DNA of 64,000 bases, from the NCBI RefSeq assembly GCF_024721175.1, contig NZ_CP099399.1, positions 1,178,001-1,242,000 on the forward strand. Reading direction: 5' to 3'. The DNA comes from Rhizobium sp. Pop5. Lineage in GTDB: Bacteria; Pseudomonadota; Alphaproteobacteria; Rhizobiales; Rhizobiaceae. The translations under genes were made by a program, and so were the position numbers. Of this stretch, positions 5,489 to 59,328 are shown piece by piece. The notes beneath the pieces are model-generated. The model was not told the origin of the DNA. It made no database searches and saw nothing but the letters and a program-made list of their open reading frames with translations. Each line of letters starts with the position of its first letter. Within the stretch, counting starts at the first letter, position 1.

Positions 5489-7615
5489 ATGTCGTCGAAA
5501 CTTGCAGGTAGGCACGTTCGAGCCCAGACGTTTTCCATCATTGCGACAACCGTCTGCTTTCTTGTCGTCGCCCTCTTACTGACCGGCCTCATGAGCCACG
5601 TGGTCATCACGATGACTCGGTCGGCAAACGAGATCGACGACGCCAGGGCCAATCGCGCCGCCCGTGCGGCGATTGCGGCCTTTGTCAGTCGCCTTAGCGC
5701 GACGACAAGGGATAACGCCGTATGGGACGACGCCTATAGCGCGACCTCATCTCCGACTGCAGCCGATTGGGCCTATGAAAACTGGGGGAAAACCAGCGAG
5801 GACTATCCGCTATACGACGGGGCGATCGTGATTGGGCCTGACGGGTCTTCGATCATTTCCGCTTATGCAAAAGGCAAGCCTTTCCAGCCGGGCGCGTTTT
5901 TCGGTGAAGCCTTCTATCGGCAGATCAACGCGGCCGCCGATCCGGGACAGGCACCGATCATCAATTTCATCAGGACCGAAAACGGTCTCGCGGTGATCGC
6001 GTCACAGGCAATCCAGCCGTTCACGATAGATGGCGAGCTGCCGAAGCTCAGCGTCCTGACCCTTTACAAGGAATTCACATCGGAAGTTCTCGACACGCTT
6101 TCGAACGAACACGAGCTTGAAGGGTTGCGCCTTGCGGCCGCGCCCGAACAGGGCCTGCTGGACACGCCGATCAAGGACATGTGGGGTCAGGTTATCGGCC
6201 ATCTCGTCTGGCCCAGCAAAGCGCCGGGAAGCGCCGTATTCCATCAGGTCTATCCTTATATTGCAGCCGCTACCATCATCCTCATGCTGTTCTTGTCCGG
6301 TGTTCTGCTGGTGGGCGCATCCGAGGCTCGACGCCTGCACCAATTGGCGCAAACGGCGCTTTTCGAGGCCACCCATGATAGCCTGAGCGGACTGTTGAAC
6401 AGACATGGGCTTCTCAACCTGCTGGAAGAGCTGGAAGACTCGGGTTCTCCACGCCGCCTCCATCTGGTCGACCTCGATGGCTTCAAAGCCGTCAACGATG
6501 CCTGGGGGCATGCGGTTGGGGACGATTTGATCCGGATGGTCTCGGCCGCCCTGATGTCTTGTCATCCCGAAGTCGTTGATGCGGCCCGGCTCGGAGGCGA
6601 CGAGTTCGCGCTCGTGCAGGTCGGGTCCGCCTCGGGCGAGGAGATGGAAAGAGCCATTCTGGCGCTCTTTGCCGAACCCTTCAAAATCGACGGACGAACG
6701 ATCGAGGTTGGAGCAAGCATCGGCACCGCTGCACGCACAACCGACGTGTCGCCGCTGGAGCTCCTGCGTAGAGCGGATATGGCTCTTTATCGCGCCAAGG
6801 CAAATGGCCGTGGCCAGGCGGTCGAGTACGATTTCGAGCTGGACCGTGAGCGCCAACGTATCGCCGAGCTGGAAGGGCAGTTGAAGAGCGCCATCAATGA
6901 TGGCGCGATCGAAGCCGTTTTCCAACCTCTCGTCTCCGCCTCGACCGGTGCTGTCACGGGTCTTGAAGCGCTGGCGCGCTGGAGAACGGCGACAGGCAAT
7001 ATCAGCCCGGAGATTTTCATCCCTCTCGCCGAGAGATGCGGCCTCATCGATGCGCTCGGCGCTCACATGCTGAAAACATCGATCGAACATGCCAGGAACT
7101 GGCCCGACCTGGCGTTGTCGGTGAATGTCTCGCCGATCCAGCTCTGCAATCCGGAATTTGCCGCCGAGGTGATCTCGCTCCTGCGGGAACTCGATTTCGA
7201 TCCGCATCGACTGACGTTGGAGATCACCGAAGGCGTTCTGATCACCAATCCGGATCAGGCCCGGCGCTCGATCGACCAGCTCAAGCGCGTCGGCATCAAG
7301 TTCGCGCTCGATGACTTTGGCTGCGGCTACGCAAGCATCGGCGCATTGCGGCAGTTCGGCTTTGATCGCATGAAGATCGACCGATCGCTCGTGTCCGCTC
7401 TCGACGAGGCTACAAATGGCGCGGATGTTCTTCGGGCAACCATCTCGCTTGCGACCGCTCTGCAGATTCCGGTCACCGCCGAAGGGATCGAGAACAGCCG
7501 CCAGGCTGCGATCCTGCGAGACGCCGGGTGCGATCAGCTTCAAGGCTATCTGATGGGCAAGCCTATGTCGGCGCGCGACATATCCACCAAGCTGCGGGAA
7601 GAGACCGCCGCTTAG
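5489..7615 (+). CDS. Membrane-bound GGDEF-EAL protein with periplasmic CHASE4-like sensor
   Basis: The 708-residue protein has a membrane helix at about residues 17-42, a periplasmic domain with CHASE4-like features (NAVWDDAYS, WAYENWGKTSEDY, YDGAIVIGPDG) and a second helix around 253-277. A GGDEF domain follows, with an intact RLGGDEF near residue 370, then an EAL domain with intact GLEALARW near 491, ITEGVLI, DDFGCGYAS and a TAEGIEN motif. Both active sites look complete, so synthesis and hydrolysis of cyclic di-GMP are both possible. No RxxD inhibitory site is seen five residues before GGDEF. The gene stands alone upstream of the pst operon. Confidence 0.9.
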   Translation: MSSKLAGRHVRAQTFSIIATTVCFLVVALLLTGLMSHVVITMTRSANEIDDARANRAARAAIAAFVSRLSATTRDNAVWDDAYSATSSPTAADWAYENWGKTSEDYPLYDGAIVIGPDGSSIISAYAKGKPFQPGAFFGEAFYRQINAAADPGQAPIINFIRTENGLAVIASQAIQPFTIDGELPKLSVLTLYKEFTSEVLDTLSNEHELEGLRLAAAPEQGLLDTPIKDMWGQVIGHLVWPSKAPGSAVFHQVYPYIAAATIILMLFLSGVLLVGASEARRLHQLAQTALFEATHDSLSGLLNRHGLLNLLEELEDSGSPRRLHLVDLDGFKAVNDAWGHAVGDDLIRMVSAALMSCHPEVVDAARLGGDEFALVQVGSASGEEMERAILALFAEPFKIDGRTIEVGASIGTAARTTDVSPLELLRRADMALYRAKANGRGQAVEYDFELDRERQRIAELEGQLKSAINDGAIEAVFQPLVSASTGAVTGLEALARWRTATGNISPEIFIPLAERCGLIDALGAHMLKTSIEHARNWPDLALSVNVSPIQLCNPEFAAEVISLLRELDFDPHRLTLEITEGVLITNPDQARRSIDQLKRVGIKFALDDFGCGYASIGALRQFGFDRMKIDRSLVSALDEATNGADVLRATISLATALQIPVTAEGIENSRQAAILRDAGCDQLQGYLMGKPMSARDISTKLREETAA

Positions 7616-47389: not shown

Positions 47390-47794
47390 ATGCTCGGCCG
47401 GGTGAACCATATCGCCATCGCCGTTCCCGATCTTGCTGCGGCGACGGCTGCCTATCGTGATACGCTGGGTGCTGTGGTGTCGCAGCCACAGGCTTTGCCG
47501 GAACATGGCGTCACCGTCATCTTCGTCGAACTGCCGAACACCAAGGTCGAATTGCTGCAGCCCCTCGGCGACGCCTCGCCGATTGCAGCCTTCCTGGAAA
47601 AGAACCCGTCCGGCGGCATGCACCACATCTGCTACGAGGTGGACGATATTCTTCTCGCCCGCGACCGACTGCTCGCGGCAGGGGCGAGGGTACTCGGCGA
47701 TATCAAGCCGAAGACCGGTGCGCATGGCAAGCCGGTGCTCTTTCTGCACCCGAAGGATTTCTTCGGAACGCTGATCGAACTCGAACAGGTTTGA
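47390..47794 (+). CDS. mce: Methylmalonyl-CoA epimerase
   Basis: A 134-residue VOC-fold enzyme. Metal-binding and catalytic blocks: VNHIAIAVPDLAAATAAYRD, VELPNTKVELLQPLGDASPI, GGMHHICYEVDDI and the glutamate in GTLIELEQV. It interconverts the (2R) and (2S) forms of methylmalonyl-CoA in propionate breakdown. It lies directly after rnj, probably co-transcribed. Confidence 0.95.
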   Translation: MLGRVNHIAIAVPDLAAATAAYRDTLGAVVSQPQALPEHGVTVIFVELPNTKVELLQPLGDASPIAAFLEKNPSGGMHHICYEVDDILLARDRLLAAGARVLGDIKPKTGAHGKPVLFLHPKDFFGTLIELEQV

Positions 47795-51432: not shown

Positions 51433-52116
51433 ATGAAACGCAACGTCGTCCTCAATCTTACCGGCGTCGAGCGCCATTACGGGCAGGGCGATACGCTGCT
51501 CACCATCCTGAAAGGCGCTGACTTTTCGCTGTCGAAAGGCGAGATCGTCGCCCTCGTGGCGCCGTCCGGCACGGGCAAGTCGACGCTGCTGCATGTCGCG
51601 GGTTTGCTTGAGCATCCTGACGGCGGCGAAGTCACCATCAACGGCAACGCCTGCGACGGTCTTTCCGACGAGAAGCGTACTGCGATCCGCCGCCGCGAGA
51701 TTGGCTTCGTCTATCAGTTCCACCATCTCCTGCCGGAATTTTCGGCGCTCGAGAATATCATGATGCCGCAGCTGATTGCCGGGCTGTCTTGGAAGGAAGC
51801 TCAGGAGAGGGCTGGCCAGCTTCTCGATTACATGCGCATCGGCCATCGCGGCTCGCATCGCCCTGCCGAGCTTTCCGGTGGCGAACAGCAGCGCGTCGCG
51901 ATCGCCCGAGCCGTCGCCAACGCGCCGACGCTGCTTCTTGCCGACGAACCGACCGGTAATCTCGATCCGGACACCGCAAGTTATGTCTTCGATGCGCTGG
52001 AGGCGCTGGTGCGCCAGTCCGGCCTCGCCGCCCTCATCGCCACCCACAATCACGAACTCGCACGCCGCATGGACCGGCGTGTGACGATCTCCGACGGAAA
52101 GATCGTCGACTTCTGA
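51433..52116 (+). CDS. lolD: Lipoprotein-releasing ABC transporter ATP-binding protein
   Basis: A 227-residue ATPase with Walker [11 protein letters not shown]-loop [20 protein letters not shown], signature [14 protein letters not shown] and Walker [13 protein letters not shown]. It powers the permease encoded 14 bases upstream. It ends a probable proS-lolC-lolD unit and is convergent with the DUF5680 gene. Confidence 0.95.
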
Positions 52117-52123
52117 GGCTGGG

Positions 52124-52588
52124 TCAGGGGATGACCAGCCCGCCGCGATAATCGAGCACATAGGCCTTCCGGCCGCCGACCATGATGCATTCGTGACCGT
52201 TGAAGCGATCGCAGCTGCCTTCGCTGCGATCGAGATAGCGGCCGAGCGGATGTTCGAATTCCATTCCGCCAAGAAACCGGCCCTCGCGATACATCGCTGA
52301 AAGAGCCGCTTTGATGATAGTTCCGGCCGCTGTGCCGTCGATAAGAGCCGGCGCGATGACGCAGCCGAAATAATTCATTGCCCAGACGGGCTCGCCGGCA
52401 AACCACACGACTTCCTGTCCGGCAAAATCCGTGCCACCGAAATAACTGTCGAGATAACGCCAGTCGCCACTGAAGTAGCCGATATCGTGAGAACCCGGCC
52501 GGCAGGGCTGGCGCGGCACGCCACCGCCGACATAGGTGGCGGCCTTGGCCTCAACGATGAAGTCGTTCAGCATCGCAGTATCGAGCAT
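52124..52588 (-). CDS. DUF5680 family protein
   Basis: A 154-residue soluble protein matching the DUF5680 pattern: DFIVEAKAATYVGGG near the start, then HDIGYFSGDWRYLDSYFGGT, DFAGQEVVWFAGEPVWAMNY and the end LDYRGGLVIP. The function is unknown. GGGAGAAG precedes the ATG. It is convergent with lolD and divergent from the 28-codon SOS peptide gene. Confidence 0.8.
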   Translation of the reverse strand: MLDTAMLNDFIVEAKAATYVGGGVPRQPCRPGSHDIGYFSGDWRYLDSYFGGTDFAGQEVVWFAGEPVWAMNYFGCVIAPALIDGTAAGTIIKAALSAMYREGRFLGGMEFEHPLGRYLDRSEGSCDRFNGHECIMVGGRKAYVLDYRGGLVIP

Positions 52589-52838
52589 TATCGTCTTCTC
52601 CCGGACTCAGCTGATATGGATATAGCAGGATACCGAGAACATAAGAAGAACAGAATAGCGAGCGTCGCTCAATCGCCTGGGCAATTGCGTCAGACCTCGA
52701 TGATCTGTGCCGATCGGGCTGGGGTCGGGAATGTCGGAGCCGGCAGCCGACCATGTTCAAAGCCGGCTCCGAGGTGAGGGCCGATTCGCAGCACGCGACG
52801 GCATTTTTCAAACGCAAGTGCGGAGGAAAAGATTCCTG

Positions 52839-52862
52839 TTGACATGTGAACATAGATGGAAC
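52839..52862 (+). promoter_or_regulatory. LexA box over the promoter of the 28-codon peptide gene
   Basis: GAAC (52848-52851), seven bases, GAAC (52859-52862) is a perfect alphaproteobacterial SOS box (GTTC-N7-GTTC on the other strand). It starts three bases after a TTGACA -35 element (52839-52844), so LexA would block RNA polymerase directly. No strong -10 is visible at 17-18 bases. A second SOS box of the same type lies before dinB. Confidence 0.8.
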
Positions 52863-52895
52863 AAATTGAAAACATAACGAGTAAAGGAGAGCCAA

Positions 52896-52982
52896 ATGAC
52901 TGACATGATCCGTGATATCGCAGCATTCACCTCCATCGCAATGTTCGTTGCCAGCTTCTCGCTCATCGTCATCGCGCTCTAA
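52896..52982 (+). CDS. 28-residue SOS-controlled membrane peptide (SidA-like candidate)
   Basis: The frame encodes a charged head (MTDMIRDIA) and one hydrophobic helix of about 20 residues (AFTSIAMFVASFSLIVIAL), ending directly at the stop. AAAGGAGAG lies five bases before the ATG, a near-perfect ribosome-binding site. The LexA box ends 33 bases upstream of the ATG. Size, single-pass topology and SOS control match Caulobacter SidA, a 29-residue LexA-regulated inhibitor of cell division that acts on FtsW/FtsN. Homology is not claimed; the similarity is in architecture. It is transcribed toward dnaE. Confidence 0.7.
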   Translation: MTDMIRDIAAFTSIAMFVASFSLIVIAL

Positions 52983-53099
52983 AGTTTTCAGGGGATCGCA
53001 TGGCAGTCATGCGGTTCGGACGCGGGACTTCTTCTGGACATCATCGCCCTCAATGCCGACAATGCGTTCGATTCATTCGGGCGATTGGGAAGGCATATC

Positions 53100-56597
<3,498 letters not shown>

Positions 56598-57966: not shown

Positions 57967-59259
57967 TTAGTGATCGCGCTTGCCGCTGCCGAAAGTATAG
58001 CCGGTCTCGACCGTGTTCTTGCCGAACTTGTCGCGCAGCTTGTCCATCGCCGCCTCTGCCGCCGCCCGCCGGCCCGATTGCCGGTCGATCAAATCGGGCG
58101 GATCAGCGCGGGCGGCATCGCCGAGATCGGTGACGCCGATGCCGAGCAGGCGGAATTTCGTGCCGTCCGTCTCCTTTTCAAGCAGTTCGAGCCCGATGCG
58201 AAAGATCCTGTCGGCAAGCTGGGTCGGATCTTCAAGCTTGCGGTTGCGCGTGCGTAACTTGAAGTCGGCGCTCTTCAGCTTCAGGACCACGGTCCGGCCG
58301 GCGATATCGTTTTTCTTCAGCCGCCAGGAGACCTTTTCGGAAAGGTTGCGCAGGATCGGCACCAGATCGTCATAACGTGAGATGTCGTCGAAGAAGGTCG
58401 TCTCGGCCGACACGCTCTTGGCCGCATCGTTGAGATGCACCTCACGGTCGTCGACGCCGCGCGACAGTCGAGCAAGCCGCTGGCCGATGCTGCCATAGCG
58501 GCGCATCAGGTCGTTCTCCTCCATTTGCTGTAACTGGCCGATCGTACGGATGCCATCGGCCTCAAGCGTCGCTGCGAAGGCCTTGCCGACGCCCCAGATC
58601 GTGGTGACGGGACGCGGCGCCAGGAATTCCACCGCTTCTTCGCGGCCGATGACGGAAAAGCCGCGCGGCTTCTGCAGGTCGGAGGCAACCTTGGCGAGGA
58701 ATTTGCAATAGGAAAGCCCGACCGAAACGGTAATGCCGATCTCCTTTTCGACGCGTCGCGCGAATTTGGCGAGTGTGCGCGCCGGTGGATCATGGTGCAG
58801 CCTCTCCGTGCCGCCCAACTCCAGGAAGGCCTCGTCGATCGACAGAGGCTGTACCAGCGGCGTCAGATCCTGCATCAAGGCCCGCACCTGGCGCCCGACC
58901 CGGACATATTTTTCCATGTCGGGGCGGATGACGATCGCCTCGGGACATGCCTCCAGCGCCTTGAACATCGGCATGGCCGAACGCACCCCATGAATGCGCG
59001 CGATATAGCAGGCGGTGGAGACGACGCCGCGTTTGCCGCCGCCGATGATGACGGGCTTATTGGCAAGCTCCGGATTGTCGCGTTTTTCGACGGCTGCGTA
59101 GAAGGCATCGCAATCGATATGGGCGAGCGTCAATGCGTAGAGTTCGCGATGGCGCACGAGGCGGGGACTGCCGCAGGAAACGCAGCGGCGTGCCTCGCCC
59201 TTCTGCTCGGCAAGGCAGTCGCGACAGAAGCCGGGTGTCTTGTCAGGCGCGGGTGTCAT
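57967..59259 (-). CDS. dinB: DNA polymerase IV (Y family)
   Basis: A 430-residue translesion polymerase. It has an unusual amino-terminal zinc-finger-like stretch with four cysteines (Cys12, Cys15, Cys26, Cys29). The catalytic core follows: [19 protein letters not shown] and [10 protein letters not shown], then the little finger. No clear beta-clamp peptide was seen at the end. The ATG at 59259 is preferred because the longer frame to 59289 runs through the LexA box. The SOS box six bases upstream implies induction by DNA damage. Confidence 0.95.
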
Positions 59260-59264
59260 GTTGA

Positions 59265-59279
59265 GAACAAAGGTTGAAC
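59265..59279 (-). promoter_or_regulatory. LexA box upstream of dinB
   Basis: GAAC (59265-59268), seven bases (AAAGGTT), GAAC (59276-59279) is a perfect SOS box of the rhizobial type. It lies between the dinB start and the divergent GNAT gene, within the leader of dinB. Confidence 0.85.
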
Positions 59280-59328
59280 GTCGCGACACTACGCCCTAAG
59301 CTTCCGAGTCACAAGAGAGGTCGGAGCT

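Follow-up and report, generated by a model that had tools for sequence, protein, structure and literature searches.

The window, by which is meant the whole 64,000-nucleotide stretch of Rhizobium sp. Pop5 DNA that was analysed, carries a frame of 28 codons between lolD and dnaE (Table 1). The encoded peptide is MTDMIRDIAAFTSIAMFVASFSLIVIAL. Its only charged residues are D3, R6 and D7, and the best 19-residue Kyte–Doolittle mean, 2.35, starts at residue 8. A LexA box begins 48 bases 5' of the ATG and is separated by 3 bases from an upstream TTGACA. The layout described in the initial annotation (TTGACA, 3 bases, LexA box, ribosome site, 28 codons and a hydrophobic helix) proved exact to the base. 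A consensus scan found no sigma-70 pair that includes this TTGACA, and hence no matching –10 element. The dnaE start is either ATG 53100 or TTG 53085. Between the peptide and dnaE lies one weak promoter-like site (53035-53063); no terminator-like site was found there on the plus strand, and the RNA fold of this gap was unremarkable (z –0.85). The gene upstream is presumably lolD, a name that we take from its sequence and from the lolC-like ORF preceding it.

Table 1. Features at the peptide locus in the Rhizobium sp. Pop5 window.
Feature	Position	Strand	Basis or remark
lolD, lipoprotein-export ABC ATPase	51433..52116	+	ABC_tran; upstream neighbour of the peptide, same strand
DUF5680 gene, between lolD and the peptide	52124-52588	minus	Domain match
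TTGACA, –35-like hexamer	52839..52844	+	Sequence read
LexA box GAACATAGATGGAAC, GAAC-N7-GAAC	52848..52862	+	Sequence read; kept in relatives
AAAGGAGAG, ribosome-binding sequence	52883..52891	+	Sequence read; genus alignment has a similar purine stretch
SidA-like 28-residue SOS membrane peptide (putative), ATG 52896, TAA included	52896..52982	+	Frame and conservation
Single predicted transmembrane helix, residues 8-28	52917..52979	+	Hydropathy only
Inverted repeat 3' of the peptide stop, without a T run	52993..53017	+	RNA fold; also in close relatives
dnaE, DNA polymerase III alpha subunit	53100..56597	+	PHP and DNA_pol3_alpha; downstream neighbour

A frame that was not conserved in related genomes had been regarded beforehand as evidence against the peptide. 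The comparison was made, and start, length, helix and box were all found to be kept in the family. A DNA match to the stretch was present in 24 of 24 other genomes sampled from the genus and in none of 16 from other families, and the peptide was readable at each of the 24 matching loci. A first peptide profile matched 154 of 199 family genomes at a lax E of 10. A broader profile, drawn partly from the same genome sample, matched 178 of the 199 at E 0.05, a threshold at which about 10 of 199 chance matches are expected; the matches cover 99 of 109 genera, and 158 genomes matched at E ≤ 0.001. The 21 family genomes lacking a profile match at E 0.05 are not all small: among the 20 unmatched genomes listed, 9 are 2.0 Mb or less. 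Frame length was exactly 28 codons in 90 of 95 family loci, a set in which two genomes were entered twice and the start with the best score was chosen.

Substitution patterns were determined for 83 distinct frames. The median dN/dS was 0.262 (1988 pairs), and pooled pS was 0.66 compared with 0.28 for nonsynonymous sites. The two shifted reading frames contain stops in 79 and 57 of the 83 sequences. The best-kept residues after M1 are D7, F17, S13, A9, A10, F11, R6 and S20, and beyond position 8 the peptide is charge-free in 68 of 71 distinct rhizobial sequences. Helical periodicity of the conservation was not significant (p 0.12), and no binding face is therefore claimed. Searches of NCBIfam, PHROGs and Pfam returned no family for the window peptide. 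As judged from the sequence comparisons, the peptide is under amino-acid selection.

The motif GAAC-N7-GAAC occurs five times in the 64-kb window against 1.81 expected, and at least five copies were found in 4 of 100 shuffles. Across the whole genome it was counted 197 times, compared with 129 for the mirrored pattern. A single occurrence could thus be due to chance, and conservation across relatives decides. Among relatives, 93 distinct upstream regions were compared; 87 have the exact box at –80 to –15, in 54 cases at –48 or –47. In the same 93 regions the controls were nearly absent: the mirrored CAAG-N7-CAAG and a spacing of N8 gave none each, and a spacing of N6 gave two. A TTGAC within 14 bases 5' of the first box accompanied 69 of the 87 box-bearing relatives, compared with 17 of 68 Caulobacteraceae loci. 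The peptide's box is beyond chance because it is conserved in relatives, not from its lone occurrence. The lexA gene of this genome (G000:C2:1537527-1538240, minus) is itself preceded by GAAC-N7-GAAC at 1538288-1538302 (minus). A tandem arrangement, GAAC-N7-GAAC-N7-GAAC, was seen in 12 of the 93 upstream regions (e.g., L032, L053 and L064) and may perhaps allow tighter repression.

The window has four other matches. One, at 52637-52651, precedes the divergent DUF5680 gene, whose start is 49 bases away. Nine genus loci (L001-L009) have a box with a varying spacer at 237-260 bases upstream of the peptide ATG; of the other 16 genus loci, 14 have no such second box in the examined stretch and two have one nearer. 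The DUF5680 gene is perhaps a second SOS gene standing back to back with the peptide. Another box (59265-59279) belongs to a gene for a Y-family DNA polymerase with IMS domains (57967-59289, minus) and is six bases upstream of its likely ATG at 59259; this is a probable further SOS gene in the window. The two remaining matches are at 7085-7099 and 47766-47780.

A same-strand dnaE was found 3' of the peptide in 92 of 95 family loci, 89-669 bases away; in 68 of the 95, the 5' flank examined contains a LolD match. An initial selection comprised 88 match rows, after most rows of E > 0.02, some rows in longer frames and some second matches per genome had been dropped; two of the dropped second matches (G202 and G228) are second peptide copies lacking a box. 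A dnaE position was available for 76 of the 88 rows, and 71 of these 76 lie 116-678 bases before a same-strand dnaE match.

This steady placement, together with the lack of a terminator-like site before dnaE, would suit a leader peptide (uORF) that adjusts dnaE expression by being translated. Such a role has been suggested for sORFs in 5'-UTRs. According to PMC10117765, the small frame sORF25 of S. meliloti 2011 lies in the 5'-UTR of dnaE1, is translated as shown by Ribo-seq and is perhaps a uORF. The copies of the peptide that stand apart from dnaE bear on this reading. Thirty-four such copies, distant from dnaE or placed on a different contig, were picked by eye, along with six second copies discussed below. 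No dnaE was found in the roughly 1 kb of downstream sequence examined for each of the 34, and all 34 retain the peptide and a perfect LexA box, with lolD upstream in 27. The mirrored motif was found at none of the 40 loci. The LexA box stays with the peptide where dnaE is absent, and a leader-peptide role is therefore disfavoured. Amino-acid selection on the peptide, its steady length and the nature of its Caulobacteraceae counterpart, SidA, a protein effector, also speak against it. We consider a leader function very unlikely.

Beyond Rhizobiaceae, the peptide profile matched 38 of 199 genomes at E 0.05 in a sample of the order, Rhizobiaceae itself accounting for six. Other families of the order gave 24 examined loci; 20 of these precede dnaE, 16 with a perfect box. 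In a class sample drawn nearly all from other orders, 2 of 239 other genomes matched, both weakly and with no box, so that outside the order the rhizobial profile finds essentially nothing. A profile of 28 residues fades fast, and the place before dnaE was therefore examined instead. Upstream regions of dnaE were taken from 96 of 152 genomes of other families with a dnaE match, mostly the larger ones, a few at contig edges being omitted. A LexA box was present within 600 bases in 23 of the 96 regions and the mirrored motif in 3. A small hydrophobic frame follows the box in 16 of the 23. Among the other seven is a Brevundimonas (G477), with a 29-residue frame, MARWVREMLSLASCGGFVWMAWQAALLAY.

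Two sets of Caulobacteraceae loci were then compared. A LexA box preceded dnaE at 19 of 30 loci in the first set; at the other 11 the box was missing or the dnaE start could not be read. The second set comprised 80 loci with a Caulobacter-type DnaE, nearly all from Caulobacteraceae or its genera. Both a LexA box and a small helix peptide were found before dnaE at 68 of these loci, and the remaining 12 lacked a box or a readable dnaE start. A LolD match was present 5' of the peptide at 38 of the 68. The loci yielded 54 distinct peptides of 29-31 residues; if several starts were possible, preference was given to ATG codons and to lengths close to 29. The peptide of Caulobacter segnis at this locus is MALRIARESLALASVAGFVWMMCSMAFLVA.

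The curated NCBIfam equivalog model NF033228 (div_inhib_SidA, 'cell division inhibitor SidA', cut-off 35 bits) scored four of five tested Caulobacteraceae peptides at 57.5, 59.7, 67.3 and 41.2 bits. The fifth, a Brevundimonas peptide, reached 20.5 bits, below the cut-off, and the window peptide gave no match to this model. Within the rhizobial peptide alignment A4, the model touched 2 of 50 members, both weakly (best E 0.031, 14.2 bits); residues 4-22 of the best member fell on model positions 4-22. Since the cut-off was not reached, the rhizobial peptide is named SidA-like and kept outside NF033228.

Comparison of the two peptide groups by hhalign gave a local probability of 86.5 (E 4.6e-6) for 22 columns that are in register from the N terminus, but a global probability of only 13.3. 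The controls for the cross-profile scores were 450 small hydrophobic frames read opposite dnaE on the other strand; 2500 shuffles served as a second reference. With the rhizobial profile, 51 of 54 Caulobacteraceae peptides scored above the 99th percentile of the controls and 44 above their maximum. With the Caulobacteraceae profile, the corresponding figures for rhizobial peptides were 70 and 60 of 71. The best of the 2500 shuffles was exceeded by 37 of the 54 Caulobacteraceae and 21 of the 71 rhizobial peptides. The signal is clear against the hydrophobic controls but softer against the shuffles. We conclude from these sequence scores that the two groups are remotely homologous, with helix composition alone lending some of the score.

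The place of sidA in C. crescentus was approached through published locus tags. The gene is CCNA_02004 (PMC10769358). Caulobacter dnaE and lexA are CC1926 and CC1902 (PMC1839093), and lexA is also CCNA_01979 (PMC11535069); recN is CC1983 (PMC1839093) and CCNA_02062 (PMC12700426). The tag offsets for lexA and recN, together with the identity of CCNA_02005 as a nucleoside hydrolase (PMC3667746), imply that C. crescentus dnaE should be CCNA_02003. As deduced from locus tags alone, dnaE should therefore lie beside sidA.

The initial annotation had read the peptide as SidA-type. This reading gained support from the shared place beside dnaE, the LexA box, the NF033228 scores in Caulobacteraceae and the reciprocal profile similarity. 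Given the conserved frame and box, the shared dnaE-side place, the NF033228 scores and the profile link, the window peptide is most likely a remote orthologue of SidA at an ancestral lolD-sidA-dnaE locus. It would belong to the SOS-induced small membrane division inhibitors, though outside the formal NF033228 family.

It is quite probable that the peptide is the rhizobial branch of SidA, a LexA-controlled helix that would delay septation, most likely via FtsW. SidA is described as an inner-membrane peptide of 29 residues that works via FtsW (PMC4211646). Of the two SidA partners named in the initial annotation, FtsW agrees with this source; FtsN does not, being the partner of DidA (PMC4211646). 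A delta-lexA strain of Caulobacter filaments through SidA (PMC12700426). The helix of YneA binds FtsW at TM7; for SidA, binding to the same TM7 is a prediction of less than high confidence (PMC13396833).

The box (52848-52862) closely follows the –35-like TTGACA, and its presence there suggests that bound LexA would keep RNA polymerase off. After DNA damage, RecA-driven cleavage of LexA would free the promoter. Such cleavage after damage is established for this repressor. The 28-residue single-pass peptide would then enter the inner membrane, presumably with its short charged end inside. By analogy with Caulobacter SidA, its helix would bind the complex that synthesises septal peptidoglycan, most likely at FtsW, and septation would wait during chromosome repair. 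An ftsW gene is present in the window genome.

Two other membrane activities were weighed against this mechanism. TisB of E. coli is a LexA-controlled peptide of about 29 residues with one charged amphipathic helix and an antisense antitoxin. A peptide acting like TisB would depolarise the membrane and make persisters, and the LexA control, length and single helix fit that description. The lack of charge after position 8 in nearly all of the rhizobial peptides is unlike the amphipathic TisB, and place and profile are shared with SidA; we consider a TisB-like role improbable. Alternatively, an SOS membrane peptide might target LolCDE, elongation or some other envelope system instead of division. 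The presence of lolD upstream in both families would agree with this, as would the local profile match, which spans the first 22 residues only. Against this, SidA at the corresponding locus works via FtsW (PMC4211646, PMC13396833), and we regard another envelope target as highly improbable. A chance frame next to a chance GAAC-N7-GAAC, of which 1.81 are expected in the window, is refuted by dN/dS, by the family spread of a frame of constant start and length, and by the conservation of the box compared with the mirrored motif; its probability is negligible.

Second copies of the peptide (L411-L416) were seen in six genomes that also have a dnaE-side copy, and a LexA box precedes none of the six. 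Two of them (L411 and L415) adjoin exonuclease genes of phage families (PHROGs). A pattern derived from L411 retrieved seven IMG/VR contigs (L417-L423), one of which is probably the contig of L411. The frames on all seven viral contigs are relatives of about 32 residues; two have GTG starts, and none has the box. A tblastn search of one phage-side copy against phage records gave no match. These sequences suggest that the second copies and the viral-contig frames are SidA-like peptides borne by phages or prophages.

An analysis of alpha-proteobacteria recovered genes already reported as SOS-regulated, including Caulobacter dnaE (PMC3323433). This is presumably dnaE proper, since dnaE2 is given separately there. 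The reported SOS-regulated dnaE may correspond to the peptide's box credited to dnaE. Going by its description, the S. meliloti sORF25 is most likely an orthologue of the window peptide; the main text of PMC10117765 makes no mention of LexA. In the open-licence literature searched, mostly titles and abstract starts, no such inhibitor was named for Rhizobiaceae and no SidA was placed before dnaE. Nothing in that material joined the SOS report on dnaE with sORF25 and SidA.

On balance, we lean towards a broader interpretation. SidA would be the ancestral alphaproteobacterial SOS division checkpoint rather than a peculiarity of Caulobacter, born at lolD-sidA-dnaE and overlooked because of its 28-33 residues and the crediting of its box to dnaE. 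Rhizobial phages would have taken box-less copies and may use them to arrest host division at times that suit the phage. Should the window peptide act as SidA does, rhizobia and related genera would gain a candidate SOS division inhibitor, the reported 'LexA-regulated dnaE' would become a LexA-regulated peptide and the translated S. meliloti sORF would be explained. It would also provide a natural helix family with which the inactivation of FtsW by a membrane peptide could be mapped.

Among known systems, TisB resembles the rhizobial peptide in LexA control, in a length of about 29 residues and in having one helix; its helix is charged and amphipathic, whereas the rhizobial helix is uncharged in 68 of 71 sequences. 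The sORF25 of S. meliloti is a small frame upstream of dnaE as well; it is translated and was read as a possible uORF (PMC10117765). YneA of B. subtilis, ChiZ, SosA and DidA are small membrane proteins that block late steps of division after DNA damage. YneA and ChiZ differ in having LysM domains (PMC13396833), and DidA in its 71 residues and its independence of LexA (PMC4211646). SidA of Caulobacter shares the LexA box, the length of about 29 residues, the single helix and the place before dnaE. An N-terminal pattern of R-D/E (positions 6-7), S13 and F-V (17-18) is also common to both. Compared with SidA, the window peptide has 28 residues, D7 in place of E and, after F-V, A in place of W, and so does not have the tryptophan found in most Caulobacteraceae peptides.
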